A stretch of DNA of 23,853 nt, from NCBI GenBank assembly GCA_943704525.1, contig CALSCQ010002220.1, positions 1 through 23,853 on the forward strand. Reading direction: 5' to 3'. The notes below the pieces were generated by a model. It had not been told where the DNA came from. It made no database searches and worked only from the letters and a program-made list of their open reading frames with translations. Shown one piece after another: positions 1,260 to 23,853 of this stretch. The position numbers and the translations under genes are program-made. Every line of letters begins with the position of its first letter. Within the stretch, counting starts at the first letter, position 1. The DNA comes from Pigoraptor vietnamica (lineage: Eukaryota; Opisthokonta; Filasterea).

Positions 1260-2959
1260 ACACTCACACGCACAACCACCAGTCCAATCCACACACAGCG
1301 ATGCACAGACCGCGGATACACATCCTCAAAGAGATGGACCATGTACGCCTCTGCGGCCTCCTGAATCGCCAAGAGCGCGTGCACTTCCCATCGCAAGGGA
1401 GAGTGTTCGTACGTCTGTGTAATCTCGCGAACCTGGCACGCGGCAAGCGTCACTCGTTAAAACGGAGGCGGTGAAGGCGAAGCGTGACGACTGGTTATGA
1501 AGTCCGCCCCACGAGTGCATACATACAGACCTAAGCACACATACATGCATAAACACATGCGTGCGCACTCGTAGAGACGCACACGCCAGCCTCGTCCATA
1601 ACGAGGCATGCTTCGCACATAGCTGTTTTCGCCCACAAGGGGGCACCTACAAGGGGGCCTTTCGCACACACGACCCACCAGTCGCGAGAAGGGCAACTTG
1701 CGTATCAACAGATCCGTCGACTTTTGAAAGTAGCGAATTTCCATAAGCGCACGCGTTCCGGGACGAAAACGCCGCTTTCGCCCCGCCGCATCTGTCATTG
1801 GCAGCCGGTGTCACTCGCAGACCCCAAGCACACGCACACGCACCCATCTCAAAGACACTTCACCGTCAGAAGGTGGGCGATGCACACCGAACTCACGCAC
1901 ACGTTACATGATCTCACAAACAACCCCAAACTCACACAATCCAATGCGCGCACTCCTGCAAGTACACGCAAACTCCACACACACACCCACCAGCCGCAGG
2001 CGCTGAGTGTTGTGGTCGTCGCTCCGGCATGCCCCGTTTGCGCTGGTTTTTCCGCACAACGGGCGCACCGGAAGCACCCCCGCGGTCCTTCCGCCCCGCC
2101 TCGCGCACTGTCGACGGTTTAACCATTTTCTCTCTCTTAGTCGCACCTCTCAAGAGGGCGTCGCAATTCGAGAGAGGGCGACGATTGCGAATCGCTGTTC
2201 AGGCGCACGCCTCGTCGCGTGTACTGTCCACGTTACGGAAACGACGCCTCCCGCAAGACCAGCCTCGCAATGAGCATGAATGACGGCGTCCTTGTCCGTG
2301 AATTTGAGTGCGGAGAACGTGAAAACGATGTTAATCTTTCCTAATCGTATGTTGGTTCGCAGCCTTCGGCGTCAGTGTTTTTTGGCGCGCAAAATTTTTT
2401 CAAATCGAAAAGTAATCGGAAAAAAATCCGACGCGCATTATTTTCGACGCCCATTTCAATACAAATTTCATAGTGAGTGATATATATTTCAACGTAGGAA
2501 ATTTTTTTACGCAACTCGTGTGCGCAAATTTGAGCGAAATCTCGGCAAAGGGCAAAATCACGTGACATGTGTAACCTCCACCCTGCCTTGGAAAAATGCG
2601 TTGTTATGGAGTGGAGAATGCACGGGGAGTCGAGAAAAGGAACGTCACCGGCGCTCCTCCTGTATTATATTGCCCAGGAACGAAACGCGCACACGCGCGT
2701 GTGTGGCGTGCGACGAGGGAGGTGCAGACGTGGGAGTGTCCAAAGGCGTGTGTTGTCGTCGTTTGGTATTTGCGACAATTGTCGACCTCCTTGCGACCCC
2801 AGTGGTGGCTAATCGGAAGTGGTGCGCGAACACACGTGCGACAACGGAGAATGCGCAGGAGATAGCGTGCGAACGTAGCTGCGACGCCCGGCGCGTGTGC
2901 CGTGGCTGTCGATACTGCTCGTTATTCCGTCGCGTGGACGAAGTGGAAGGGGAGCGAAG
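620..2959. other. Intergenic region, no convincing gene
   Basis: Open frames in this stretch are low-complexity (His/Thr or Cys/Val runs from CA/TG repeats) or rich in Arg and Ser without family patterns, so I call none of them. It holds TG and CA microsatellites (near 1096-1113 and 1210-1255), many short CA-rich patches up to about 2000, and an AT-rich island at about 2325-2560 in otherwise GC-rich DNA. The last few hundred bases should include the promoter and 5' leader of the CCDC17-like gene that starts at 2960. Confidence 0.6.
1210..1255. repeat. (CA)n microsatellite
   Basis: An essentially perfect CA dinucleotide run of about 46 bases. It is preceded by imperfect CA/GCA-rich DNA from 1166 and followed by CA-rich DNA to about 1300. 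Confidence 0.95.
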
Positions 2960-5900
2960 ATGGCCGCACGGGTCGCGCACGGTGCTGGAGCGCACGCGTG
3001 CGCCGAGTGCAATGTCGCGTTCGATTCTGCCGACAAGCTCACGAAGCACAAGGCAAAGTACTGCGTGGGAAGTGCGTACGATCCCGTCGTGCTTGCGACG
3101 GCCGCAGCGGCGCGAGGGGCGGCTGAAGGGAGCTCGTCGCCGTCCCACGGACAGCGCCTGCTCCCTCAGAACGTCACGGTGGAAACGGTCGCAAAGTCTG
3201 GAATGGCAAAGATGGTGCGTTGTTTTTCTAGCTAAGGGAACTCTGTGCTGCTGAGTGTCTATTTTGGGACACGGCGGCACCGCGATGCTCACAGAAGGTG
3301 CTAGTGGCGAACATGAATCGTTGGGAGATTACGAACTGTGTGTTTTTTTTTGTTTTTTTTTTGTGTGGTAGGTGTGGCGGCTAAGAATGGGGTTGTGTGT
3401 CTCGCAGAGCCTTCAGGAGGTGAAGCAGCACTTCAGTTCGAACGTCGCGGATCTCGAGCGATTGGAACAGGAGGCGTTGCGGCGCAGCGAGGCGGAGAAG
3501 GTGCGCAAGCTGCGTGAGCTCAAGGCGCGGAAGGAGCAGCTGCGGCAAAAGAGGGAGCAGGAAGAGCAGGTCGGTGGTCCATGCAGTCCCTAGTAATTGC
3601 TCACACTTCAGAATTTGTGTGTCCGTGAGCACGCCTATAATTCACTGTCTCATACTCGCTGTGGGTTGATGGGCACTCGTCTGTCTGAACGACATCACTC
3701 ATTCTCACGAATTCTGTCTGTAGGGACTCCTCTCGACCCTCAAGGACTTGCAAGCGCACAAGGAGACCGAGCTGCGCCTCGCACTCGAGCGCGAACAGGC
3801 CAAGAAGCAGCTGAAGGGGCTCGGGCGGCAGCAGTTGGCGCAGCTTGAAACGGAGAAGCGGCGGGAAATAGAGGCGCTTGAGAAGGAGAGGGACGCGGCA
3901 CTGCGGCGCGAGGCGGACGCTGTCCACATGTTACAGCGCGTGTCGGACCGTGTTGGTGCGGCCGTGGGCGTCAATGGCGGGGACATGATGCGGGGCGACG
4001 GCGCGAAGGGCGGGGCGCACGTGGGAGTGGGGGATGCGAAGAACAGGCACGCGATCTTTAACCAGGTGCAACAGCACGCGGAAGAGCACGGGCGCGTGTT
4101 TGCGGGCATCAGCGAACAGACGCGGCGACTGCAGGAGCAGCGGAACGCGATCATCCGGCGATTGAATGAGCTCAACCCCGACGGCGGCGAGGACGAGCGC
4201 GCCGAGATGCACGCGCGCGAAATCGCCGAGCTCGTGGAGCAGCTGCGCGCGGACAGCGAGAAGAACGAACTGGCGTTGCAGTCGCTGCGGGAGCAAATTG
4301 AGCGCAGCCGGGAGGAGGAGGCGCGGACGCTTGCCGAGGAGAATGCGTACGAAGCGCAGGCGAAGGCCGCCGGGGGTCGAAAGGGCGCGACGACGGCCAT
4401 GTCGCGCTCGTCCACCGTCGCTCAGCTCGACCGCTCGCAGCACCCGAAATCGCACGCGGCGGAAAAGGGCGCGCTGCAGCCGCCGCAGCAGCCCAACAAC
4501 AACGCGGCGAGTGGCGCCCCAAACAGCCCGCGGACGGAGGCGGCGTCGCACTTTGCAGCGGCGAACCCCCTCGTGGCCGACATTGCGCGCCTGCGGGCAG
4601 ACTACCTGCGGCAGGGTGGCGCCGATCCGCACGTCCTTGCGCAGATGGCCTCGCTGGAGATGCAGGCGCGCACTGCGGGCGCTCACGTGCCCACGCACTA
4701 CCCCGGAGGCCCCCATCCGCCGTACGCGCCGGCCGTGCCTGGCTATCCCGGGGCGCACCACTCGTTCGTGGACGCGTCGTCATTTTACGGCCTCCCTCCC
4801 CCCGTCCAGCCGCTGCCGTACGCCGCGTACCCCGCGGGACCCGGTCGCTTGCCGGTGGTTCCCGGCGCGTTTTACGCCGGCGGGCACCCGACGGCAGAAG
4901 AGCAGGCGCTGCCGTCTGCGATACAGAAGCAGCTGGACTCGTACGAGGAGGAGAACAGGCGGTTGCAGGACGAGATTGACGCGCTGCTCGCGAGGTCCAA
5001 GCGCCAACAGAAGGCACAACAAGAACAGCGCACCCTCGAAGCCCTCGCCCAGCGCAACGGCGGGCGCGCGGGTGTGCCGGGCACGCTGTCAACGCAGGAG
5101 GCGTTGCTGAGGGCCGGTCCGCCCATCGTCGATCCCGAGATGCTTCCCGAGGGCGACCCGGAGGTTTCGAAGATGCGCACGGACCACGCCAAGCGCATGC
5201 TGTCCCTACGCCACGAGTATGAGCTGCTCGTGCAGCAGAGCGCCGTCGAGGCCCTCCGCGGCGAGCAGAAGCGGAGGGCGGAGAGCGACCGGCTGGCGCA
5301 GGACTCGTGGACCATGAGGGGCGGTGCGCCGACGTCGGGCTTTGGGCCGTACGATCCTGCGATGGGGTTTGTCGTGTACTGGGACTTTGCGACGGGGATG
5401 CCGGCGGCCGTGACGCACTGCGCGCTTGCGTTTGGCCTGTTCGACAACGGCCGCGTCGTCGGCGGCGTCAAGGCTCTGCCCAAGACGGATTGCTTTTTGC
5501 TTGAGGCACCTGGCGCCGCCCCGCAACCCCCGGCGGGCAATAACAGGCTGCCGCTTCCGCCGCCCGCCCCCGCGCGCACATGCGTGTGCGTGTTTGGCGG
5601 GAGGCGCGCCTTTGCAAACGTCCCTCCGTCACCATCCGCGTGCATCGTCGTGGAGGCACAGGTGCCGTCGAAGGATGGCAAGCTCGAGGCGCTCGGGTGG
5701 TCCAAGTTTGAGCTCTTTGACGGCATGCGACAGCTGCGGAGTGGCCGTTGGCGCCTGCGCCTTCGCGTGCCCCCCATGCAAGTGCAGCTTCACCCGTCCC
5801 GCGTGGAGACACTTCCGCCCGTCGCTCAGGCCGAATTGTGCCTCCGGATTGTCGTCGCTCAGGGCCGCGCGATTCATGACACGGTCTCTCTCGACCCTAT

Positions 5901-8900
5901 CTCGCGGCCGGAATACGTGCCGCTCGACACATCGGTTGGGGCGATGTCGTTGCCGCAACCGCCGCAGCCCGTCATGCAGCCGGCTGTTTCGATGGTGCGC
6001 GAGCCGACCGTTGCGTCGGTGGCGCCCCAGACGCAGGCGCAGACGGCCTCGCTCACGCAGTCGCAGGTGGGACAGCTCGGGCCACGCTCAAAGCCGCCCG
6101 CCGCTCCCTCGCGCAAGACGGCGACGATTGTCGAATCTGAGAGCGATGAGGAGAGCGAAGAGGACGACGAGAGCGAGGAAGGCGACGTCGCGCCATCGCT
6201 CGGCAGATCGAAGGCCGCCGGCAGCATTGCGGCGTCGTCGCGGCGCGGGCGCGGGGCTGACGATGCGCTGGGGGGTGTTGGCATACAGATTGACCGGCTG
6301 AGGGACGCGGGCGACGGACCCTTCCGAGTGCGCGTGTCGCTGCTCGACGCCAACGGGGAGGCGACGGCGGACGATAACGGCATGCCGCACGCGTTTGTGA
6401 CGGAGCCAGCGCGCAGCCGACTGAAGGCCGGGATCGTCGAGTACGGCAAGCAGGCGCTGTTCGGCCCCGGCGCTTCGCCACCCGCCTACGCCGTGTTTGA
6501 GATCATCGCGAGGGTGGAGGGCGTGGAGACGGCCGTCGCGTGGACTGCCACCGCGATCGACCCGAGCGAGACGCTCCCGCAACCCCTCTCCCTCGACATC
6601 TACCTGCCCCCGCTCGCCGCACTCCCTGACCCCAACTTCCACCAGCGGCTGGGTTCGGCTGCGCTCATTGTCTGGACGTTTCCTCCCGGTGCGCCGCCGA
6701 AGGGCCCCGCGGCCCCGTCGACGATCGGTGACTCTGTGGCGGACGATCTCGGCGAGCGGGCGGGCGCCGACGGCGTCGCTTTTGGGCTTCCGCCGGAAGT
6801 GTTCCTCCCGTACTCCCGCGAGTACCCGCCGGCCAACGCCTACGAGGGGGACGAGGGCTTTGACCTGTACATTGACGGTGCGCGCTTTTTGCCGGACAAC
6901 GTGACGATCACCAAGGTCACCGGCCGCGTATTTGACGACGCGTACAACAAGATCGGCCCCGACCTCGCGACGGCCATCGAACTCGACAGCGACATGTTCA
7001 ACCCGGCGTACAACGCGCGCTTCGAGTACCGCGCCGTGCCCATACCTCCGACAGCGACCATCCTCCTCAAGCTGTATTCGATCGACCTCGTGACGCGCGA
7101 CCTCGCCCTCGTCGGCTACAGCGCCCTCAACGTGTTTGTAAACATCGGGACGGAGGACCAGCCAGGAATGCGCGACACGATGCCGATCGCCCTCAACACG
7201 GGGGCGTTCCAGCTGCGGATTTACTCGGGAGCGCCCGACCAGCGCCAGCGGCTGTCGGTGCGCACGCTCGAGCAGAACCGCGTCGTGCCGTGCGCAACCC
7301 TCCTCGTCCGCATCGTCTCTGCCCCAAAGGACGACAACGGCCACGCACTGTCGACCGGCAATGTGCCACGCGAGGACTGGGAGTCGCGTGGGCTGTTTGT
7401 GCCCGCGCCGTCGTATGTGGAGGGAAAGTACGTCTCGACGCAGTGCACTCCCACGCGCGGAGAGGCGTCCCTCTACCTCGCAGTGGCCGCGCGTGCGCCG
7501 CTGGCCATTCGCAACGCGCTGTCGCTCGCGGGGGACGGCAAGGAAAAGCGTCTGCGGACGGACAAGACGATACAGAGCTGGATCAAGACGCGCCTGTCGC
7601 GGCCGTCGACGGTGCAGGTCGTCGACATGCCCGTGACGTACATTGCAAAGTACGTGCCCAAGCAGGGCATCTCGGTGTCAGTGGATGCCGCGACGAATCT
7701 GCCGAAGCCTCGGCTGTCCTTTGCGATCTTCACGCTGTCGCCGCCGGGGTCGTTCTACCACGTGGGAAACCGCAACCAGCCGAAGGACTCGCTCACTTTC
7801 ACGCACGCGCTCGACTTCGAGTCGGAGCTGCGCACGCCCGTGTGGAAGGACGGCTTTCGCCACTTTCGGCGGCGCCTCTACGCCAAGTTCATGGTGCTTA
7901 TCGTGGACGTGCGCGGCGTCGAGATCGAGGAGCCCGGCGGATTTTTCTCGAAGGGCGGGGACAAGCGGACCTTCCGCCTCATCGAACAGGGGTGGTCCGT
8001 GGCGCAGGTGTTCACGCCGAACGGATACGTTTTCACCGAGTCGTACCAGCTGCCGCTCTACCAGGGGACGCCGCCCGAGGCACGTGACGGGCTCTTCTGT
8101 TTGTGCCGTGGTGGCCGAGTGTGCGGTCTGGTTAGGAGCCTCGTGCACTCATTTATTTCCCATTTCTCTCCACGTACGATTCACACGCACTCGCGCACAC
8201 GCACACGCACACACTCACATTCACTCACGCTTTCAAAACACGTACGCCACGCGCAGTCGATAATCCGGCAGCTGCGCGAGGAGACAGTCGAGTCTGTCAT
8301 GGCGAAGGCCGTTGAGACGAAGCGCGTCAAGCCTATCCAGGGCGCCTCCGTCTTTGTGCGCATCGCTGACCACCGCCGCACGGGCGAACTCGCGCGGCCG
8401 AGGGTGCGTGGCCACGTGATGCTGCGTGCGACCTTGTTCCCGTATTCTTCTGCTTTCCCCGCTCTCGTGTTGGCACGTCTATCGACAGTCTGTGGCGTTT
8501 GATGATTTCTGGCGAATTACTTCACCTCGTCCTGTCGACTGCCTTGTCGCTGACTGCTTGTTACGCGCGCGTTACGTTTTTCCCACCGCAGGGGCACATC
8601 AGCCGAGCGTACCTACCAGTCGGCAAAGAGAAGCAGTACCAAAGCGTCACGTCGTCCAAGACTGCCACGACCGCCATCCCCAAGGACCAGTCGCCGCCAG
8701 ACTTTGCGCATTTCATCGCCACGAAATTTGAGGAGGTGTGTGCGCGTGCGTGGACTCGCGTGTGCGTGCGTGAATTTTTCCGGTTTCGATTTGTGCATGC
8801 TACTGTGTCGTCCGCGCGTGAAAAGCGATGCATTTTTTTTCATTCGTCGCAATGCAAATACTCGCAGCTCGCGACCGCGTGGTCGGCCTCCCAAGCTTCA

Positions 8901-9528: not shown

Positions 9529-11089
9529 TCACTTCCTAAAGTGGTAGCTTATAAGCACCGAGAGAATAGACGCGAGGCCATACGCGATCCGCGCAAGCAG
9601 CTCTGGCGTGATCGTAATCGTAAAGATCGTAAAACCGATGCAGTTGCGACCGAGCATCCACACGGAAAAGTACGCGTTGAGCTGCGAGAGCGCCTCCATC
9701 GTGGGGCACGGCGCATATCCACCCGCTTGCGATGCAATGGACGCGCACGACGCGGCGGCCTTGGCAGCGACAGAGCCGTCCGACTTGCCGTAGCGACTGT
9801 CGACGATGATGTGGTTGATCTTTCCCGGCAGTTGCTGGATCGCAGACGTGAGGATGGACGCCTGGGTGCGCGTGCGCGAGTCGTTAGGGGAAGGGAGGGT
9901 GCGGGACAACTAGGTAGGGAAGTATGCGTGCACGCTACGCACACATGTGCGCACAGAACAGGCAAAACCGACATACATACACGTAAACGCACATATATGC
10001 ACGCACAGACATTCACACGCAGGCAGACAGAGCGTGTGCAGACCTCACCTTGATCAGGAGGAACGCGACCGGCAGTAGGAAAATCGCCGAGAATATCCAG
10101 CCGCGCATCTCGGCCGTTTCCGTGCGAAAAACGAAGAGCACCGCCTGGAGGAAGAGCGACAGCGCCGCAATGTTCGACATGTACGTGATGTAGCCCTGCA
10201 TGTTCTTGGACGTCTTGGCCACCGAGCGCTTGAGATCGCGGTGCATCGGGATGATTATCTCCGGCCGAAACTCGCCGTCAGAGACAGTCTCGAGCACGTC
10301 CCTCAGCTCCATCGCGTGGAGCTCGCACGCCATTACAAAGTACCCCATAATCGTCGCCACGGCCGCGTTCTGGTACGTGAACACGACAAACGTCACCACG
10401 GTGTCCGCCGCCAGTTCGCCCACGTTGCGCCCGCGGAAGCTGTCCTGGATTACGAGGCCCGTCACGAGATTGATGGCGACAAAGAGGGCCGAGACGAGAC
10501 ACGAGTACAGCGGGATGATCCATTTCCAGCGCTGCACGGTGGTGGCGAAGCGCTGCGTGGCGGTGTCGCACCAGCACACATTGTTCGCGAGCTCGCGGAG
10601 ATGCGCCGACCGCCTGTGCACGAAGTGGCCGAACGCGAACGAGGCGATTGGGATGGACGAGAGACAGAGGCCGACGACCGTGTGGAGGCTCGGCGAGAGG
10701 CCGATCTCAAACCATCCCGGAAGGCACGGAAACGGCTTGTGACGGAGCAGAATGATGCCGTTCGTCACCCACCCGAAGAACGTCCACGAGACGCACAGCG
10801 CCACAAACGCGGGATAGAGAAAGCGGCCGAGCATGCCGCAGCCCTTTGGCACGTGGTACCCAAGCGCGAGAAGGACGGGCTCAAAGGCCCTGTCCACGAC
10901 GGCCTCAAACACGCGCGGGCGAGCGGCGATATCTTCCGTCTGTGTGTCCTATTTTGTGTTGTGTGTCAGAAGAAACGTGTTTGAAAATGGCGCGGAGAAT
11001 TACGCGCGAAACCTTACACTTACATCATTCGTGCACACGGGCGAGAGAAGAGGCACGCGGAGGCCCTCGTCGTCCGCCTTGCTCGCCAT
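9529..11089 (-). CDS. Seven-transmembrane gustatory-receptor-like (GRL) protein
   Basis: Coding order on the minus strand: exon 1 11089-11024 (22 codons, donor GTAAGT), exon 2 10939-10049 (297 codons, donor GTGAGG), exon 3 9861-9529 (110 codons and TGA). Introns are 84 and 187 bases, both phase 0. The second has a CTAAC branch-like site and a pyrimidine tract before CCCAG. The 429-residue product has hydrophobic segments at about 62-87, 107-128, 162-185, 202-226, 274-293, 302-318 and 405-427, with a charged loop between the fourth and fifth (227-273). The C-terminus (GFTIFTITI from 395, then ILSVLISYHF) has the layout of the last helix of insect gustatory/odorant receptors, which ends in a TYhhhhhQF motif (h, hydrophobic). 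Those proteins are cation channels with a cytosolic N-terminus; a channel role here is inference. The N-terminus has a dileucine-like VPLLSP. The exon structure is firm, the family moderately so. Confidence 0.6.
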
Positions 11090-12912
11090 GGCAGCGAAGA
11101 CATAAGCACAGGGAAAGGTATGATCGAGAAGACTTTACAAGTGCGTCTTTCAGCACTTGGCGTGAGGGGCGCGGTGGCTGGGTAACCTGTGTTGCTGGAC
11201 TGTACATCCGGGGTGTGTAGCCTTTCTTCTGGCACCTTCGACCGGCACTCGGGCGGGACTAAACTGAACATTTGTGCGATATTTTGAGTCTCTTTGCGCA
11301 CTTTCCAATATATTTTGTCACGGGTGCTCTGCGTCCGGACAGAGACTGCCAGCACTTTCTCACAGGCTGAAACAGCTGAGCACAGCGCACGCGTACGAAC
11401 CCCTTCTGCCACCCACTCTGCATCGCGCGCGCGCGTGTGTGTGTCTGTGAGTACGTTTTCATTGCTCACAGAGAACAAGCCAAGGGAGTCTGCATCTCTT
11501 TCTAACAGCTTTATCTCTAGGCGAACTTTTTCGTAAGCGAGTGTGGTGTTAATCCGGCACAGCAAGTGACCCTCGTTTTGTCTCAACGCCCGGAATTGCA
11601 CAAAATGGCCGACGTGGCTCAGCAGGTGGGTTGTTTGCCGCATTGCAGTGCACGCCAGACTGGCTCCCGTGTGGACATCTGTCACGTGCACTTGGGCTGT
11701 GTGCTGGTGGCGTCTAAGTGGACCGTTACCATGAAGTCTTGTTCCAGTTGGATTCACCGTCCTGCTCTAGCGGCGTTGCGTGGTTTACGCATGAGTGTGT
11801 TGCGTGCACTCGGCGTCATGCTCTAGCGGCGTTGCGTGGTTTGCGCATGAGTGTTGCGTGCATGCGTCACACTCGGCGCATGCAATGCACGCTTTCCCAT
11901 CCATCTCATGTGTCACGTGCCATTTCACTCGACGCAGGTGGAGGAGCTCAAGAAGAAGGGCAACACGGCCTTCTCCAGCGGCGACCACGAGACCGCCGTG
12001 CGCTTCTTCACGGACGCAATCAAGCTCGATGCGCGCAACCACGTGCTCTTCAGCAACCGCTCTGCTGCGTATGCGTCGCTGAAGCAGTACGAGAACGCCC
12101 TCGCCGACGCCAACGAAACCGTGCGCCTCAAGCCGGACTGGGCGAAGGTGCGTGCGTGTTCTTAGAGAGTGCGTGCGTGTTCTTGGAGAGTGCGTGCGTG
12201 CGTGGAGAGTGTGTGTGCGAGGTGTGTCGTGTGCGTAGAGTGCGTCTGTGCGTCTGTACAGTTATTATCACGGTGCACATGTAAGTTATTGGTTGTGTGC
12301 TGTGTGCACGCGTTCCCTGTTACTAGTGGGCGTGATTGTAACTGCGCACTTATGGCCCCGCTCCGACGTCGCAGGGCTACTCTCTGCGCTGGCGTTCCTC
12401 AAGCGCTACGAGGACGCCGCCGTTGCATACCAGAAGGGCCTCAAGATTGAGCCCGACAACGCCCAGCTGCGCGCGGGTCTCGAGGACGCCGAGCGCAACC
12501 TCCAGGACGACGCCGGCATCGGTGCGTGGCCACGCGGCGTGCGTCTGCGCCCTTTTCGCCTGTTTTTCTAACTGTCTTGTTCGTGTGCACTGCAGTCGAA
12601 AATGCATCGTTTGTTATGCATCCTTTGTTATAATAACTACGCTCTCTGCAAATTGTGTTGGTCTATCAGCGTCGGCGTAAGCATTTGGCGGCTGTCTTCC
12701 CCTGTGTCGTTACTCGCACTCCCCTCGCCGTTACTCACGCTTCCCTCCGCGGCTTTCCGACAGACAACATGTTCGGCAAGATGTTTGAGGGCGACGTGCT
12801 TGCGAAGCTCGCCGCGAACCCGAGCACTGCGCCGCTTCTGCTGCAGAAGGACTTTGTGGACATGGTCAACGAAATCAAGCGCGACCCCAAGAAGCTCAGC
12901 ATGTGGGTGGAC
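10885..12912. repeat. Segmental duplication, copy 1 (GRL 5' end, promoter, STI1 5' exons)
   Basis: This segment matches 21725-23853 in the same orientation. Aligned by eye, the STI1 exons and introns are nearly identical. Differences include a 10-base deletion in STI1 exon 3 of this copy and CCGG-rich extra DNA in the GRL intron and promoter of the other copy. The left edge is near AGGCCCTGT at 10885. The right edge cannot be seen, because the other copy reaches the window end. Confidence 0.9.
11090..11604. promoter_or_regulatory. Shared divergent promoter region of the GRL and STI1 genes
   Basis: The 515 bases between the two divergent start codons must hold both 5' leaders and probably both promoters. 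A CCAAT/TATA-like stretch (TTCCAATATATTTTG) lies near 11305. A near match to a heat-shock element, TTCTGGCACCTTC (11227-11239), differs from TTCnnGAAnnTTC at one position. STI1 genes are commonly heat-inducible, so this element is plausible but unproven. All of these are kept in copy 2 at 22001-22530. Confidence 0.4.
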
Positions 12913-13524
12913 GGCACTTGCAACGCACTCACGCGCACACACGCATTGTCTCAAACAACGCAAAGCACGAAAATTGTATTGAGCCTTCACAGAATCGAAC
13001 CCGCGGCGCTCACCTCCCCGATGATTTTTGCGCAACGCAGGTACCTCCAGGACAAGCGCGTGATGACGATGATTGGTGCGCTTGTGGGCATTAACGTGAA
13101 CGGCGGCCCCGGGGGCGATCCGATGGACATTGACCAGGACCGGGAGCGCGAGGAGGCTGAGGCACGCAGGAAGAAGGAGGAGGAGGAGAAGAAAAAGAAG
13201 GAGGAGGAGCGCAGGAAGGTGCGTTTGGACTGTCGGCTGCGTGCGCGTGCGGGTGTGTGGGGGCACCGTGTCATTGTTAAATTGCTTTGAATCGCTCCGT
13301 TGATTGTGTCGAATGGCACGCTGACACGTGCGGCACACTGTCGCAGGCGGAGGAAGCTGCGCGCCCGCTGACGGAGGAGGACAAGATCAAACTGGAGGCG
13401 GTGAAGGAGAAGGACCTCGGCAACGAAGCGTACAAGCGCAAGGAATTCGCCGTCGCTGTCAAGCCCTACGACGCCGCGATTGCGAAGGATCCCGCCAACA
13501 TGACGTTCTACACGAACAGGGCCG
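11605..13524 (+). pseudogene. STI1: STI1/Hop (Hsp70-Hsp90 organizing protein), copy 1, frameshifted and truncated
   Basis: Exons: 11605-11625 (MADVAQQ), 11938-12147, 12375-12521, 12764-12902, 13041-13218, 13347-13524. They cover TPR1 (KKGNTAF, NRSAAYA), the DP1 domain (from NMFGKMFEGD to KRVMTMIGALVG), a Lys/Glu-rich linker and the first part of TPR2A (KEKDLGNEAYKRKEF). Hop links Hsp70 to Hsp90 through its TPR domains. Compared with copy 2, exon 3 lacks 10 bases after GGCTACTCTC (about 12384). This breaks the frame in the KGYSRLG motif, which holds TPR1 clamp residues; the exon should be 157 bases and is 147. After the exon 6 donor (13525) a TG microsatellite begins, and no further TPR exons follow before the opposite-strand gene. 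The rest of TPR2A, TPR2B and DP2 are absent. Intron 1 holds a 56-base tandem duplication (from about 11763). An assembly error could mimic both defects. Confidence 0.85.
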
Positions 13525-13567
13525 GTGCGTCTACCACATTTGTCGTTGCGAGTGTGTGCGTGCGTAA

Positions 13568-13568
<1 letters not shown>

Positions 13569-13616
<48 letters not shown>

Positions 13617-13648
13617 TGTGTGTCTGTGTGTCTGTGTGTGTGTGTGCG
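13569..13648. repeat. (TG)n microsatellite with TGTC interruptions
   Basis: A perfect TG run to about 13615, then a TGTGTC-interrupted tail to 13648. It starts 44 bases after the last recognisable STI1 exon of copy 1 and marks the point where the gene is lost. Confidence 0.95.
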
Positions 13649-14465
13649 CAATGGTCCGAGTGGTCCGAGGGTGGGTCACCACACGTCCACCTTACACGTA
13701 CAGTACTACAATCAGGCCCATTTCAGAAACAGTGCAATACAAATGCGCACGGTCTATTTAAAGGGGCACCTAAGGCCCAAAAGGTCTTGAGCAGCTAGTA
13801 TGGCATGAAGCTTGTAATGATTTGACAAATTTCGTTTAATCCCCACCCTACGTTGCAAACAGCAGGTCATCTTTGACCCCAGTTTTCCCCTCTTAGAAAT
13901 AACTTGACATTTTCGAGCAAGACACAAAGATGACGCGCCTTTTACTGCTCTTTCGTGCCACGCAAACAGTGGGCGTACCGGATGACTGAAATCGCAGTTT
14001 AGTCGCAGTTGATGTTTACTGATTAACCCTCACCGTAAACTACATTTTGTACAACACATCTCACATGTATTGCCATCTTGAAAAACACTCGACATTTCTA
14101 AACTTTGCATCGTTGGATACGTCTTTGCAAGCTCTGTAATACTCTCCAAGGGTGTGCGCACACCTTGACGATTCCAATTAGTATTGAAAATTATAATGGA
14201 AAATTCTGACGTCGTTTGAAACTTTCGTACGCGATTTTTCAATACATTTCGTAGTAATCATGTTACCTGCCCCCTATTAGCAGCTGGAATCTACTGAAGT
14301 GCGCTGTCCAATGGAAACGCTGGAGTGCGTTCGAATCACTAAGCACATTCCATTTATGCCGAGGTCGTGTAAACACCGGCAAGTACATGCTGCCGCTTGC
14401 GCACTGACATGGCCAGCATACACGCACTCACACACACGCGTCGCGCACACATACACAAGCAGGAC

Positions 14466-14581: not shown

Positions 14582-17164
14582 CTACTGCGCATCACAAGAA
14601 GATCCGCCGCCGCAGCTGAGCAGCAGCGCAAGACGCCAGTCCGCGTCGCCGCGCTTGAATGAAACGCCCCTCGACGTGATGCCTATCTGCGAGGCGCCGT
14701 CGCATGTCGTGCTCGCGTACAGGCCCGCAGGTATCGTCTCGTCCGCCGGTCGCGCGTCCGAGCGCCAGGACAGGCCGCCGTCCCCGCTCGATGCGCAGTC
14801 GAGACGACCGCCAGCACCTCCCGTATTGCACGCGAAGATTGTGCCCGCATTGCCGTTCACGAACACGAGCTTTGCGGCGAAGCTGTCCACGGACGGAGTC
14901 GGCGTTGGCAAAAAGGTCCCGGCCGCAGCCGGAGGCTGCGTGACCGTCACGGTCGCAGGCGGTGCCGTCACAGTGACGACCATCGTGTCCCGAAGCGTTA
15001 CAGGAGGCTGGGAAACCGTCACCGTCACAGCTGGTTCAGTACGAGTGACGGTGGCAGCGGGCTCGACGACAGTGACGACGTCGTGCGCAGTGGCGACTGC
15101 CGAGGCCATCACGGGAGGTGCGGTAACGATCACAGTTTCGCGAACGGTGACTGGTGCATCCCGAACGGTGACGGTTTGGTCGTTCGTCACCGTGACTGCG
15201 ACGGTGGCCGCGGGTGGGACAACAGTGACGACATCGTGCACGACCGCTGTGGCTGTCGCCGTCACCGGCGGTATGGTAACGCCCACAGTCTCGCGGACGG
15301 TTAACGGTGGATCGCGTACGGTGACAGTGGGCTCCCGCGCTGTCTCCGTCACAGTGACGACGGGAAGGACGATGCTCACAGTCTCGCGGGCCGTAATCGC
15401 AGCAGCCGTGACGGTTCGCGTGGGGCCCGCGATCGACTCGAAGACTGTTACTGGCGGAAGTGTCACGGGAGGCGCTGTTACGGCGAGCGTCTCGACCTGG
15501 CGAACAGCCGAGATGGACACGACAGGGGTAGTCACGGTCTTGGTGACCGTTACAGTCGACGTCGACGTGGAAGTAACTGTTGCAGGGGCGCGCATGTTGT
15601 ATGCGGGCAGGACACTCGCCACGAGCAGGGACGAGTACCCCACCTGCGCTGAGGTCGCCTCCTTGGGAAGGCCGTGGAGCGTGATGTTGGCGAAAACCGG
15701 CGTATCCGATGACGGGTTCCAATCGAATCCGCACGAGAGGTTCTGCAGCGGCGGCAACTCGACGAGGATTATGGCGAGAGGACTGCCGTCCGAAACCGCC
15801 GACGAAAAGCGAGCGCCGTCGGCCCAAATGCGCGGGAAAGTGGCGTTGCTCCCCGTAACGTTGACCGAGAATCCGCCGGCGATCGCGCGCGCTAGGTCGC
15901 CGTTGTCCAGGATCTCTCTCGCCCACACGTGCTCCTGAAGGCCGGTCAGCATCATCCGCACGGTGAGGCCGTCCTTCGCCAAGTGGCGACAGGGGAGCAC
16001 GCCGTCGCACAGGCCATCCACAAAGAAGGAGACAGTACTGGGAACGAGTTCCGCGTTCGAGACTTCAGCAACGACGCCGACCTGCGCATCGACCAGCGCC
16101 GAGTACGTCACACCGCGCACAAACGCGCTGTCTTCCGCTGGGATGGCGAGCAGCTGAACGCCGGCGGTTTGCGCCATCGGCAACACGTTGACCGGCACGC
16201 CATTTGATGACAGGCGCATCGTGGCGCCTCCCGACAGAATCCTGAAGGTGAAGAGCACGCCCCGCGTCGCCTTGTTGGCTTGCGTCGCCGTCGGCAAGAA
16301 ATTGAGCTGCGCGGCGCTGCGTTGCGCGAGGGTCACGACCACTTTGCTCTTCGAGCCGCCGCTGCGGACGTCCGTGAAGCGGAGAGAGACCGGCTGGACA
16401 CCGAGCCCCCCCCCGGTGGCGCCGACGCCCCTGATACGGACCATGAGGAATCGCGCCGCCGTCCCCACATTCACCTTGACAACGCCCGTCACCTTGGCGA
16501 CTGTCTGGGTGGCGACCGTGGCCCAGTCGAGGTCGTCGCACTTGACATCGGGCGCCGCGTCGATGGTGTAGGACGTGCTCTTGCTGACCTGCCAATCGAC
16601 CCACAGTTGGCCGGCCACGTCCGAGGTGGAGAGCGATACGTTCACGTACGCTGTTCCTCCCTCGGCGATAGGATTCAGCGTCACGAACGATGTCCTCGCC
16701 GCAGCGACATAGCGGGCGTCGAGGGAGACCGTGTACGTCCCTGACACTGGCGAACGGAAAAAGATTCCGCTGAAAACGCTCACGACATAGACAACAGGGC
16801 CGCTCGGAACGGCCGCCGACGGGGCAAAAGAAACGACTGATCCTCCAAAAATGGTATACGATTGCGACGACACCGTGCCGGACAGCACGTCGCGCATAGT
16901 GACGAGAGCGGTGGCGGATGAAGCGAAGATCGCGCCGAACCGCAACACCAGCGCAACGTGGTCGAAGGTCCCGTCACCCACATCAACAGAGAACGTGACG
17001 TCCGAAGCGGTGTTGACGACGATAGGGACGCCGCCGAGAGTGAGACCAACTTCATGGTAGAGCTGGACCGAGTCAAACGACAGAAGTTGTGTAAATATGC
17101 GAATGCGTGATACTACACTACAAGAGCCGAAAACACCCTACTGCGCACACATATGCATCGCGAC

Positions 17165-17254
<90 letters not shown>

Positions 17255-20200
17255 TGTCTCTGGATGCGGGCATGATTGTGGGTGTATGGCATCGGTACGC
17301 AAGTTAGCGTGCAAATGCGGGCGTTAGCGCACCGAGACCGATAGTGACTTCGTACAAAAAACTTACCGTGAACGAATACGTGCAGTCTCCCCGCGGGGCG
17401 AGAACTTGAGCGTAGATGTTGTTGCCGTTTGCCGCATAAACGATAGCCTGGTTCAACGGCATGACGAGCCGCCTGTCACCGCCGTGCTCGTCGTCGTCCG
17501 AGCCAATTGGCATCAAGTACGTGCCCCCCAAGTCTACGTACAGTCGCAGGTTCAGGCCGCAGTTGTCGTCCGGTTTCGCTACGAAGGCGAGGCTATCGCC
17601 TGCGGGAGCGAGCTGCGGGATGGCAGAGAGGTCGCCGGCGTCGAACTGGAGGATGTGAAGGTAGTGACGGCGGGCAGACAGTTCGGTACCATTGGCGATA
17701 GGCACCCGGAACGCAGTGCCAAACCGAGGGTTCGAGAGCGTGTAAAGCGCTACGACAAAGTACGTGAACTTCGCAGTGACCGCGCCTGACACGAAACTGA
17801 CGCCGACGTTGAGACTCGTGGTTGTGGGCGATGTGCGCGTCCACTGCACGCGCTTGACAGTAGCGGCCGTCCGATCGATCGAAGCTTGCTGCGGAACTCT
17901 CAGGGCGTTGAACGGAATGCTGTTCTCGGAAATGTAGAGATCCACCTTGGAGGAGAGCGTGACGTCGACGGCCGCAACCACGACCACAACATATACCGAC
18001 GGCGTGATGTCGATCTTGAGCGAGAACGCGCGGGCGCTGGCAGGGACATCGCTGGCGACGTCGAAAAGCGACCCGAGGTTAAAAGACCCCGCACCGCCGA
18101 CGCGCAGTGTCGCGAAACGGCACGCGAAGAGTCTCACACGGTTTGGACTGGTCGACGAGGGCACCTCCATGTCGAGTACGCCCCCCGCGTTCGCCACCCA
18201 CGTTGAGAACGACCCGAGGGCCGTCAGCACTAGGCTCTTATCGAACCCGAGCGAAACGTCTTCCCACATTTGGATAGTCAAGGGCGCGCTGTCGAAGAAG
18301 CCGTTCGAAAGTGACCACAGCTCGTCAAACGTCGTCGTCGTTTTGTGCGATGTCTCGAGAACTTGCTGCATCCACGGCGCGGAAAGCTGCACATACGATT
18401 TTGACACCGAGTGGGTCACAGTGAGCACGCCGAGGTAGCTCGTAATGGGCGCCGACGCCGGCTGCACGCCCGGCATGAGACTGTTGAGTCTCGGGAAGAC
18501 GCCCGTATCCTGCAGCTGGTCCGAAGAACGCTGTCCGTTGCCGCCGATGCAACCGGAGCACACCGAACAGCCGAGATAGCGGCGGTCGACGAGGCCCGCT
18601 CCACACATAATTCGAGTCGGACGGGTAGGGAAGTAGACCGAACATGTCAATGCTGACGTGTCCGCCGAAAAGGCTGAGCGATATCTTGTCCACGCGCCAC
18701 CGCCAATCGACGCCAAAGTACGTCCTGTACGAAATGAGGGGGCAAGACCTGTCCGTATCGAGCTCGATGCCGGCGTACGGCCCAAGCGAGAACGAAATGG
18801 GCAAAACGCCACCGACCATGACCACGAACTTGAGAACGAGACGTAGTTTTGCGTCGATGTGCGCCGAGAGCTGGCCGGCGGGCGACTGTAGGGTGAGCGT
18901 GGGGGCCTTGCTGTCACCCAGCGCAACCTTGTTGAACGGATCCGAAGTGATCCACTTCCCCTGGACGCGCGCGATGCCGTACGACACCGACCGGGAGAAT
19001 GCAAAGCTCTGGCTCGCGGTGAAGCACAGCGCGGCGACGACGTCGAGCTCGAGCCCAATGTTGATGGAAGACGTGAGGCTCACGGGGATCCAGCCGATCG
19101 CAAAAGTATACGAGAACGCCGGCACTGGCAGGTCCTCCAGCAGCCACCACTCCTTGTGGATGAACGTACTCGTGTAGACGGTGGCGTTCGCGGCGAATTC
19201 TACTTGCATGGAGCCGTCGAACGACACGCCAAAGTCAACGTAGGGCCAGAGCGGGAATATGCCGATGTCGAACCAGATCGAAAACCCCGCCTTAAAGATG
19301 GCGAAGCAGTCCGTGCACGAGACCATTCCATCGTCCGTGTGCATGACGGCCTTATACCCCGCGCCCGGCTTGTTAAACGACCACTCGACGCTCTTATCGA
19401 AAGAGCCCTCGACGTCGAAGATGCGCTTCTGCAGACGACCCGACGACTCGTCGTTTCCCCCGCTTCTATCTCCTTCGCTCGAGTTCGTATGCGGCGTCGT
19501 CGCGCGTCCCCCAGCGCCTCGGTCTGGAGCAGGATGCATCGCATGGCGCACGGAACGAGCGTTGTCGGTACCAGAATCGGAAATCCCATCTTCGCCGTCG
19601 TCGTTCGCGTCGTCCTGTTGCGCGGGAGTCGCGTCGATTCGAGGGGCGTACGAGATACGCGCAGACGAGCCCGGCTTGAAGCAGTCAAAGAGACTACGTC
19701 GCGGACCCTCGAGCTCGACCACATAAACGCACGTGTCTCTGGGGGACTTGTCGGGAAACAGGTTCGTGTAATTTTCGATGCGCGCGCATGCGATTGAGCG
19801 CACGACCGTGTGGCCGACGTACGTTCGATGTTGCACCGCAGCGTCGATGAAGACGTCCGGAGAGAACAGCGTGTGGCACCGCACGGCAGCGGACGTCACA
19901 ATGATGCTACGGCCCGGAGTGAGGCGATTGACCCACGACAGTCCCGTCGCCCACACGACCAGATCGGCATCAGGGTTGGGATTGCCGTCGTCGGAGACGT
20001 CCTCATCGCACGCGACGGACCACACTTGCGCCTCGTAGTCGAGGGAAAACACTCCATCGTGCACTTCCACGCTGTAAGAGGACTCGGCGCTTGCTCCGTC
20101 GTCGTTCACCACAAGCCTCTCGTCGCGCGTCGCACGCCACGAGCCAATGTCGCCGCTGCCCTCGAATTCGGTGTCACGTGCGGCGCCGTCCGTTGAGTCC

Positions 20201-20514
20201 GGCGAGTCAGTCCGTCGGCGCCGCCGCGTCGCACTGTCCTGACCGGCGGGCGGAGCCGGGGGCGCAAAGATGTCGATTCCTTTGAAAATCTTCGCAGGCG
20301 TCTTGAACGGTGGCAAGGCCACTTTCTCAGCTTCGCCCCCACCGTTTGGTCCTGGCTGAGACGTCGCGTTAACACCATCACTGACAGCGCCGGCCGGCGC
20401 CGCGCCGTCGTTCAGAGTCGGCGCTGACTCCGCGCAGGTGAGAGTGGCGGAAAGGAGAATTGTCGCGAACCACAGGGCAATAACGGCCCTCATCGTCGTG
20501 CCAGTAGTCGGCAT
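14582..20514 (-). CDS. Large secreted, possibly adhesin-like protein of unknown family
   Basis: Start ATG 20514 (alternative ATG 20493) gives an N-terminal signal peptide with a hydrophobic core (RAVIALWFATILLSATLTC, probable cut after Ala). A polybasic stretch (TRRRRRTD) near residue 95 could be a processing site. Residues about 330-630 form a Trp/Phe-rich beta-like region opening with CTDCF; it faintly recalls fungal DUF7223-type domains, which I rate as weak. The frame shifts by +1 near 18606. Either a 76-base phase-0 intron (18606-18531, GTGTGG...GGACAG) or a two-base loss in a short TG run would explain it. Reading continues to donor GTAAGT (17366) and resumes at 17062 after a 304-base intron containing a long microsatellite. 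The last exon has further beta-rich sequence, Cys-containing parts and a Val/Thr/Pro repeat, ending at 14582. Total is about 1,850 residues. I see no membrane anchor, so secretion is the simplest reading. Confidence 0.65.
14926..15590 (-). repeat. Repeats encoding a Val/Thr/Pro-rich stalk
   Basis: Inside the last exon of the secreted-protein gene. A unit of about 51 residues (roughly 150 bases) recurs two to three times, each with TVTVRDxPxTVRETV, then xPPV, then HDVVTVVxPAATV; shorter TVTVTxPP units flank it. The composition is almost only Thr, Val, Pro, Ala, Arg and Glu. It is probably an extended, O-glycosylated stalk, as in many cell-surface or secreted adhesins. The antisense strand is open for 460 codons across it as a by-product of the composition. 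Confidence 0.8.
17167..17252. repeat. Long (TG)43 microsatellite within an intron
   Basis: An uninterrupted run of 86 bases of TG on the plus strand, which is CA in the transcript. It lies inside the 304-base intron 17063-17366 of the secreted-protein gene and is the longest simple repeat in the window. Confidence 0.97.
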
Positions 20515-20970
20515 CGATCGCCGGCGCAGGCAACGGGGCTCGCATGCACTGGCATTGCCGTCGCCCTGAGCCCACCGCTCAGCATAGGAAGACGGCCGGA
20601 AACGCTGGACAAATGCAGCGTCGGGGCCCTCATTGTGTCGACCGCCGGCGGAAAGATCTAGAGTGGCGCTCGCCGGCATCTTGGCGAGCAACCGTGGCGA
20701 GAATGCGCCCTTGCCGGCCCGCTCGAGTCTGCCGCGCCCCGCCGGATACCCAGCCGTCGCGATTGCCGGCGGGACCAAACGTGACGGCAAGCCTGCTAGC
20801 ACCTTTGGCTCGGACACACTCGGCGTGTTTAAGTTGTGCCGCCCGTCCTGTGCCGAATACTGCACGGCAGCTCAGCAGTCTTCCCAGTGAAATCTCGGCC
20901 GATTCCAGGAATCGATGGGGAGACAGAGACGCCGGCGTTCAGGCTCGGGGGCACTGACGGATGAGCTTTC
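20515..20970. other. Upstream region of the secreted-protein gene
   Basis: The minus-strand frame stays open upstream of the signal peptide to about 20865, but that part is Arg/Pro/Ser-rich and would bury the signal peptide about 117 residues inside. It is therefore more likely 5' leader and promoter. No other gene is seen. Confidence 0.5.
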
Positions 20971-21650: not shown

Positions 21651-21724
21651 CCCCCGGGCCACCGCCGGCCGCCGGGCGAGCGCGAGCCGGCGGCGCCGGG
21701 AGCTCAACGGCGAGTCCGGCGGGA

Positions 21725-22000
21725 GGCCCTGTTCACGACGGCCTCAAACACGCGCGGGCGAGCGGCGATATCTTCCTTCTGCCAGTGCGCCCTATTTGAG
21801 TTGAAAATGGCGCAGTCCGGTGACCGAGCCGGCCCAGGCCACTCCCGACGACGGGGCCGGCCCGGGCCCGGGGGCGCCCGGCCGCGGCGCCGCCGGCCGG
21901 CCGGCCCGGACCCGCCGGGCCGTCTTACATCACTGTTCGTGCACACGGGCGAGAGGAGAGGGACGCGGAGGCCCTCGTCGTCCGCCTCAGTGCTCGCCAT
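21725..22000 (-). pseudogene. 5' relic of the GRL gene (copy 2)
   Basis: ATG 22000 opens a 24-codon exon (22000-21929) matching the first exon of the GRL gene with two extra codons (MASTEADDEGLRVPLLSP), followed by donor GTAAGA. An acceptor-like CTGGCAG near 21779 precedes a match to the start of GRL exon 2 (EDIAARPRVFEAVV). Similarity then ends and the frame runs into a stop after about 25 codons. None of the seven helices remains. The intron has gained a CCGG-rich stretch. This is a non-functional leftover of the duplication, or a contig-building error. Confidence 0.8.
21852..21922. other. Nearly pure G/C insertion in the copy 2 GRL intron
   Basis: Bases 21852-21909 contain only G and C, and only one A (21910) breaks the run to 21922. 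It is dense in CCGG, GGCC and CCCGGG palindromes. Copy 1 lacks it entirely. Confidence 0.85.
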
Positions 22001-22530
22001 GGCAGCGAAGCAAACACACAGGAAAGGTGATCGAGAAGGCAGTGCGCCGCCCGGCCGGTGAGCGTGACTGAGCCCGGTCCCGGCCGGCCGGGCATGCCCG
22101 GGTCAGGGCCTGGGTAACCTGTGTGCTGGACTATACATCCGGGGTGCGTAGCCTTTCTTCTGGCACCTTCGACCGGCTCTCGGGCGGGACTAAACTGAAC
22201 ATTTGTGCGATATTTTGAGTCTCTTTGCGCACTTTCCAATATATTTTGTCACGGGTGCAGTGCGTCCGGACAGAGACTGCCAGCACTTTCCTCAAGGGCT
22301 GAAACAGCTGAGTACTGGCGCACGCGTACGAACCCCTTCTGCCACATCGCGCGCGCGTGTGTGCGTGTCTGTGAGTACGTTTTCATTGCTCACAGAGAAC
22401 AAGCCAAGGGAGCCTGCATCTCTTTCTAGCAGCTTTATCTTTCGGCGAACTTTTTCGTAAGCGAGTGTGGTGTTAATCCGGCACAGCAAGCGACCCTCGT
22501 TTTGTCTCAACGCCCGGAATTGCAAACAAA
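22001..22530. promoter_or_regulatory. Divergent promoter region, copy 2
   Basis: It is homologous to 11090-11604. The CCAAT/TATA-like stretch and the heat-shock-element-like TTCTGGCACCTTC (22158-22170) are kept. The part next to the GRL relic (about 22044-22108) is replaced by CCGG-rich sequence, while the STI1-proximal part is well preserved. This fits continued use for STI1 only. Confidence 0.4.
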
Positions 22531-23838
22531 ATGGCCGACGTGGCTCAGCAGGTGGGTTGTTTGCCGCATTGCAGTGCACGCCAGACTGGCTTCCGTGTGG
22601 ACATCTGTCACGTGCACTTGGGCTGTGTGCTGGTGGCGTCCAAGTGGACCGTTACCATGAAGTCTTGTTCCAGTTGGATTCACCGTCCTGCTGTAGCGGC
22701 GTTGCGTTGTTTACGCATGAGTGTGTTGCGTGCACTCGGCGTCCTGCTCTAGCGGCGTTGCGTGGTTTGCGCATGAGTGTTGCGTGCATGCGTAACACTC
22801 GGCGCATGCAATGCACGCTTTCCCATCCATCTCATGTGTCACGTGCCATTTCACTCGACGCAGGTGGAGGAGCTCAAGAAGAAGGGCAACACGGCCTTCT
22901 CCAGCGGCGACCACGAGACCGCCGTGCGCTTCTTCACGGACGCAATCAAGCTCGATGCGCGCAACCACGTGCTCTTCAGCAACCGCTCTGCTGCGTATGC
23001 GTCGCTGAAGCAGTACGAGAACGCCCTCGCCGACGCCAACGAAACCGTGCGCCTCAAGCCGGACTGGGCGAAGGTGCGTGCGTGTTCTTAGAGAGTGCGT
23101 GCGTGTTCTTGGAGAGTGCGTGCGTGCGTGGAGAGTGTGTGTGCGAGGTGTGTCGTGTGCGTAGAGTGCGTCTGTGCGTCTGTACAGTTATTATCACGGT
23201 GCACATGTAAGTTATTGGTTGTGTGCTGTGTGCACGCGTTCCCTGTTACTAGTGGGCGTGATTGTAACTGCGCACTTATGGCCCCACTCCGACGTCGCAG
23301 GGCTACTCTCGCCTCGGTGCTGCGCTGGCGTTCCTCAAGCGCTACGAGGACGCCGCCGTTGCATACCAGAAGGGCCTCAAGATTGAGCCCGACAACGCCC
23401 AGCTGCGCGCGGGTCTCGAGGACGCCGAGCGCAACCTCCAGGACGACGCCGGCATCGGTGCGTGGCCACGCGGCGTGCGTCTGCGCCCTTTTCGCCTGTT
23501 TTTCTAACTGTCTTGTTCGTGTGCACTGCAGTCGAAAATGCATCGTTTGTTATGCATCCTTTGTTATAATGACTACGCTCTTTGCAAATTGTGTTGGTCT
23601 ATCGGCGTCGGCGTAAGCATTTGGCGGCTGTCTTCCCCTGTGTCGTTACTCGCACTCCCCTCGCCGTTACTCACGCTTCCCTCCGCGGCTTTCCGACAGA
23701 CAACATGTTCGGCAAGATGTTTGAGGGCGACGTGCTTGCGAAGCTCGCCGCGAACCCGAGCACTGCGCCGCTTCTGCTGCAGAAGGACTTTGTGGACATG
23801 GTCAACGAAATCAAGCGCGACCCCAAGAAGCTCAGCAT
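22531..23838 (+). CDS. STI1: STI1/Hop co-chaperone, copy 2, intact frame, 3' end outside window
   Basis: Exons: 22531-22551 (MADVAQQ), 22864-23073, 23301-23457, 23700-23838, with phases 0, 0, 1 and 2. The ATG sits in ACAAAATGG. TPR1 is complete and carries the expected carboxylate-clamp positions that bind the EEVD tail of Hsp70: Lys and Asn in KKGNTAF, Asn in NRSAAYA, Lys and Arg in KGYSRLG. DP1 starts with NMFGKMFEGD and runs to the window edge; the donor GTGGGT at 23839 gives SM/Y joining as in copy 1. Unlike copy 1, exon 3 is the full 157 bases. TPR2A, TPR2B and DP2 should follow outside the window. This is the likelier functional copy. Confidence 0.9.
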
Positions 23839-23853
23839 GTGGGTGGACGGCGC

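Follow-up and report, generated by a model that had tools for sequence, protein, structure and literature searches.

Insect taste and smell channels have been proposed to originate in the last common eukaryotic ancestor, and convincing members of their superfamily beyond animals and plants help to distinguish common descent from convergence and gene transfer. Benton et al. (2020) described 17 gustatory-receptor-like proteins (GRLs) of unicellular eukaryotes, from Spizellomyces, Protostelium, Thecamonas, Vitrella, Chloropicon and Micromonas (PMC7746228). As characterized by these authors, unicellular GRLs are 350-500 residues long, with seven predicted spans, long inner loops and a weak or missing TM7 motif; the identity of protist GRLs to other members goes down to 10%, and some keep only one of the four motif positions (PMC7746228). 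Trypanosome members and PHTF were added by Benton and Himmel (2023; PMC9998090), and a wider superfamily is attributed to Himmel et al. (2023) in a later review (PMC11526382). Because protist GRLs have thus already been published, the protein reported here is at best one more of a described type.

We analysed a window of 23,853 nt, meaning the whole stretch of DNA under study, and confirmed that positions 9529-11089 of its minus strand hold a genuine three-exon gene of a GC-rich eukaryote, which encodes a 429-residue membrane protein (Table 1). The initial annotation had spliced three phase-0 exons into a protein of this length, and this model was borne out by GT...AG intron borders, codon use and a partial second copy of the gene. 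Measured against the large open reading frame at 3748-8502, itself an unconfirmed gene, codon log-odds in the proposed frame were +0.32, +0.33 and +0.25 for exons 1 to 3 and negative in the remaining five frames of each exon. Third-position GC reached 0.82, 0.86 and 0.76 in the three exons, and the GC content of the two introns was 0.44 and 0.57. The length of the open reading frame is by itself no evidence for a gene, because the longest stop-free run (311 codons) lies below the maximum of 411 codons found among 300 mononucleotide shuffles (mean 157). A 432-residue model, with the acceptor of intron 1 placed 9 nt upstream, was rejected: the partial copy is out of frame with the upstream acceptor and in frame only with the downstream one, and the 429-residue model is therefore better.

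Table 1 Features of the seven-helix gene and of its partial copy in the 23,853-nt window.
Feature	Coordinates	Strand	Details
Exon 1	11024..11089	-	66 nt; residues 1-22; start codon at 11089; supported by codon log-odds and second copy
Intron 1	10940..11023	-	84 nt; phase 0; donor GTAAGT, acceptor CACAG; this acceptor keeps the frame in both copies
Exon 2	10049..10939	-	891 nt; residues 23-319; hydrophobic segments 1-6
Intron 2	9862..10048	-	187 nt; phase 0; donor GTGAGG, acceptor CCCAG
Exon 3	9529..9861	-	333 nt with stop; residues 320-429; long loop before TM7, the GFTIFTITIT stretch, the last helix and a tail of four residues
Truncated second copy	21724..21992	-	Exon 1 equivalent, diverged intron, about 18 codons of exon 2

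On the Kyte-Doolittle scale, the protein has main peaks at 62-80, 107-125, 168-186, 203-221, 275-293, 304-322 and 407-425. The seven hydrophobic segments of the initial annotation correspond to these main peaks; simple hydropathy adds an eighth at 386-404, which is weaker yet above threshold, and a count of seven spans is valid only if 386-404 is no membrane span of its own. With the N-terminus assumed to lie inside, inner loops of 61, 42, 42 and 84 residues stand against outer ones of 26, 16, 10 and 4. In this model, 25 lysine and arginine residues fall inside versus 8 outside. By density the inside is not richer, neither over all loop residues (25/218 inside, 8/56 outside) nor within 15 residues of the membrane (13/105 inside, 8/56 outside). 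An intracellular N-terminus, as claimed initially, is thus favoured by the charge count but not by the density, so that charge leans weakly towards this orientation; neither counts nor densities pointed to a clearly extracellular N-terminus.

The protein terminates 4 residues past its last helix, and GFTIFTITI and ILSVLISYHF, from which a likeness to the end of insect receptors had been drawn, are both present as quoted. No strict match to the TM7 motif (T/S)Yhhhhh(Q/K/E)(F/L/M) occurs in the protein; in register with Gr43a, SILSVLISY stands opposite TYLVILIQF, with one of the four motif positions kept. The motif is described as diagnostic, not definitive, for GRLs, and since fungal GRLs with one of four positions have also been reported in that publication (PMC7746228), such a score is compatible with membership. 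Local alignments placed the C-terminal stretch on TM7 in 4/4 reference tails (DmOrco, AbOrco, DmGr43a and BmGr9), the scores of the C-terminal 55-residue alignments being equalled by 12%, 10%, 8% and 30% of 1000 shuffles, respectively. Judging from the alignment with GAKFFTVSL of Orco, we read GFTIFTITIT as the probable linker preceding TM7b, not the helix itself, and the candidate pore helix would be the segment at about 405-428. Near the other end of the protein, LALGYHVP (46-53, before TM1) presumably recalls the Gly-x-x-Pro stretch found before TM1 of many GRs.

In AlphaFold2 models of the separately folded exons, predicted without relatives, mean pLDDT was 45.3 (exon 2) and 47.0 (exon 3). 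Within the exon-3 model, the helix at 405-428 scored highest (block pLDDT 55, 75 and 83). The low-confidence exon-2 model contains helices at about 196-242 and 248-294, and such long fourth and fifth helices would be compatible with cytosolic extensions like the OR anchor domain. A Foldseek search with this model, whose confidence is too low for the result to count, gave 33 matches to mixed helical proteins (best E 5.0) and no OR/GR.

Sequence searches for a family were negative throughout. Pfam, searched with the whole protein and four fragments at E up to 10, gave no match to 7tm_6, 7tm_7 or DUF3537, under HMMER filters that conceal most weak matches. DUF6867 (E 0.29 with the whole protein, 0.096 with one fragment) and FliX, the sole NCBIfam match (E 0.17), were dismissed as chance, as were CAP-Gly proteins (E 1.2 and above), found among PDB sequences with part of exon 3. 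PDB sequences contained no match for the whole protein or exon 2 and no receptor for exon 3. A small, insect-only GR/Orco profile, built from the C-terminal regions of five receptors with solved structures, gave no signal with the whole protein: its 0.8 bits were equalled by 19% of 485 scored (of 500) segment-preserving shuffles, and the reversed protein reached 1.2 bits. The C-terminal part scored -1.9 bits, equalled by 94% of 496 shuffles, and its best local match lay away from TM7. Controls were detected, namely Orco versus GR (18.0 bits), Gr43a versus Orco (5.1 bits) and BmGr9 versus Orco (11.1 bits). The profile search suggested earlier for the Gr and DUF3537 families thus failed to find a match, in Pfam and with a five-sequence insect profile that detects known OR-GR pairs. 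Likewise, no match to another 7TM family appeared in Pfam, NCBIfam or PDB sequences. Relatives of exons 2 and 3 were absent from viral and genome contig collections, and tblastn of exon 2 found none in phages and plasmids, these collections of viruses, plasmids and prokaryotes having little bearing on eukaryotes.

Taken together, we favour, with a probability of roughly 0.5, that the protein belongs, as a very divergent member, to the seven-transmembrane ion channel superfamily of insect OR/GR, animal and protist GRLs and plant DUF3537. What stands of the original GR-like assignment is the length, the segments, the general layout and the C-terminal end; sequence homology to insect GR/OR and the TM7 motif, at 1/4 positions, do not back it. 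It is quite possible, if rather less to our mind, that we are dealing with a lineage-specific membrane protein of an unrecognised seven-helix family with a convergent layout, which may not be a channel but a transporter or scaffold. Such a protein would explain why no GR/OR profile signal appeared though known distant pairs were detected, and why Pfam, NCBIfam and PDB sequences yielded no family match of any kind. However, the order of loop lengths and the C-terminal end match GRLs, and published protist GRLs are so divergent, with identities down to 10% and in some cases 1/4 motif positions, that a missing signal is expected for true GRLs too. Having no match to another family is acceptable under criterion (i) of Benton et al. 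(2020; PMC7746228).

An eight-span protein, whose segments 386-404 and 407-425 would pair up as a hairpin in the membrane, leaving the C-terminus inside provided that the N-terminus is inside too, appears improbable to us. On the Wimley-White octanol scale, ten windows pass at threshold 0, and 383-401 exceeds the last helix at 407-425 (7.8 versus 5.7); 386-404 also passes the Kyte-Doolittle threshold. Nevertheless, only two residues separate the windows 386-404 and 407-425, the former contains an Arg and an Asn, and part of it is modelled as strands, not helix, in the single-sequence exon-3 prediction, at low confidence.

The second copy, whose upper limit (21992) was taken from the exon-1 start codon in the list of open reading frames, was recovered by blastn as matches of 11019-12915 to 21924-23851 (94% over 1942 columns) and of 10885-10954 to 21724-21797 (89%). 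In the alignment, it keeps the exon-1 frame across two 3-base gaps; its similarity to exon 2 ends after about 18 codons, and a stop follows shortly beyond. Since this copy keeps the frame, it supports exon 1, the start codon and the 429 residues. That the gene is decaying or mis-assembled, its 5' end being present twice within 11 kb, is highly improbable: it is true that the second copy is incomplete and that a 10-base length difference separates the two copies of the neighbouring STI1-like gene, but the copy at 9529-11089 is open across three exons with coding-like codon use.

The blastn matches also delimit a direct repeat (11019-12915 and 21924-23851, 94% identical, about 10.9 kb apart), which carries the 5' starts of the seven-helix gene and, on the opposite strand, of an STI1/HOP-like TPR gene. 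Some stretches of the repeat are identical, which points to a duplication of recent date, to gene conversion or to an artefact of the assembly. The 10-base length difference between the STI1-like copies falls in a coding stretch (12370-12390 versus 23300-23325), and therefore at most one of them is in frame at that point. Elsewhere on the contig, 2897-8502 of the plus strand combines a C2H2 finger match that is weak and below cut-off (E 6.8e-4) with a subsequent 1584-codon coiled-coil open reading frame, for which there was no solved relative below E 0.06. We take this region to resemble CCDC17, a protein of organisms with cilia; such a likeness would be a hint that the host has a flagellum. 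On the minus strand, 14582-20865 contains a pair of large open frames. TVTV/APPVTV repeats abound in one of them; the other probably encodes a signal peptide and matched no Pfam family above the cut-off. This region perhaps encodes a secreted or wall protein. Long CA/GT microsatellites occur at 1155-1260, 13511-13682 and 17131-17308, partly inside predicted open frames and introns, and scanning the window for Rfam families and tRNAs gave no matches.

If the protein belongs to the seven-transmembrane ion channel superfamily, as we infer from its architecture, it would have a cytoplasmic N-terminus with an amphipathic helix, followed by TM1-TM6, with loops that are short outside and long inside. 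Helices 4-6 would reach into the cytosol and hold the subunits together, and the last helix (about 405-428) would line the pore of a tetramer, which a ligand or another stimulus may open. A more specific reading, which we regard as rather unlikely, is a member from a lineage in which none has yet been published, so divergent that architecture alone is left, in which a possibly re-entrant pre-TM7 segment forms a variant pore entrance, unlike that of insect receptors. The protein will add weight to the question of channel origin only once its fold and host are known.

Among the described systems, plant DUF3537 proteins (PF12056) carry, ahead of their last helix, a stretch like Gly-Ile-Thr-Val-Phe that presumably resembles GFTIF of the protein. 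They differ in their longer third inner loop (PMC7746228), and their family gave no Pfam match in the protein. Insect Orco and Gr43a (PDB 9vqr, 6c70, 8jm9) share the same order of elements, short outer loops and long second and third inner loops, and the chains of DmOrco and DmGr43a also stop close to the last helix; in contrast, they lack significant sequence similarity to the protein, and their TYhhhhhQF-type motif is absent from it. The pre-TM7 segment 386-404 is more hydrophobic in the protein and without counterpart in Orco/Gr43a by Kyte-Doolittle, a method which, applied to Gr43a in the same way, overlooked span four and picked out a segment at the N-terminus. The membership of unicellular GRLs rests on BLAST and HMM links; the protein here was compared with their published description. 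By that description, it shares with unicellular GRLs its length of 429 aa, its weak TM7 motif, its seven main segments, with 386-404 counted apart, and, given an N-terminus inside, its long inner loops, which exceed the outer ones; in length, main segments and loops it fits Benton et al. (2020; PMC7746228) on criteria (ii), (iii) and (v).
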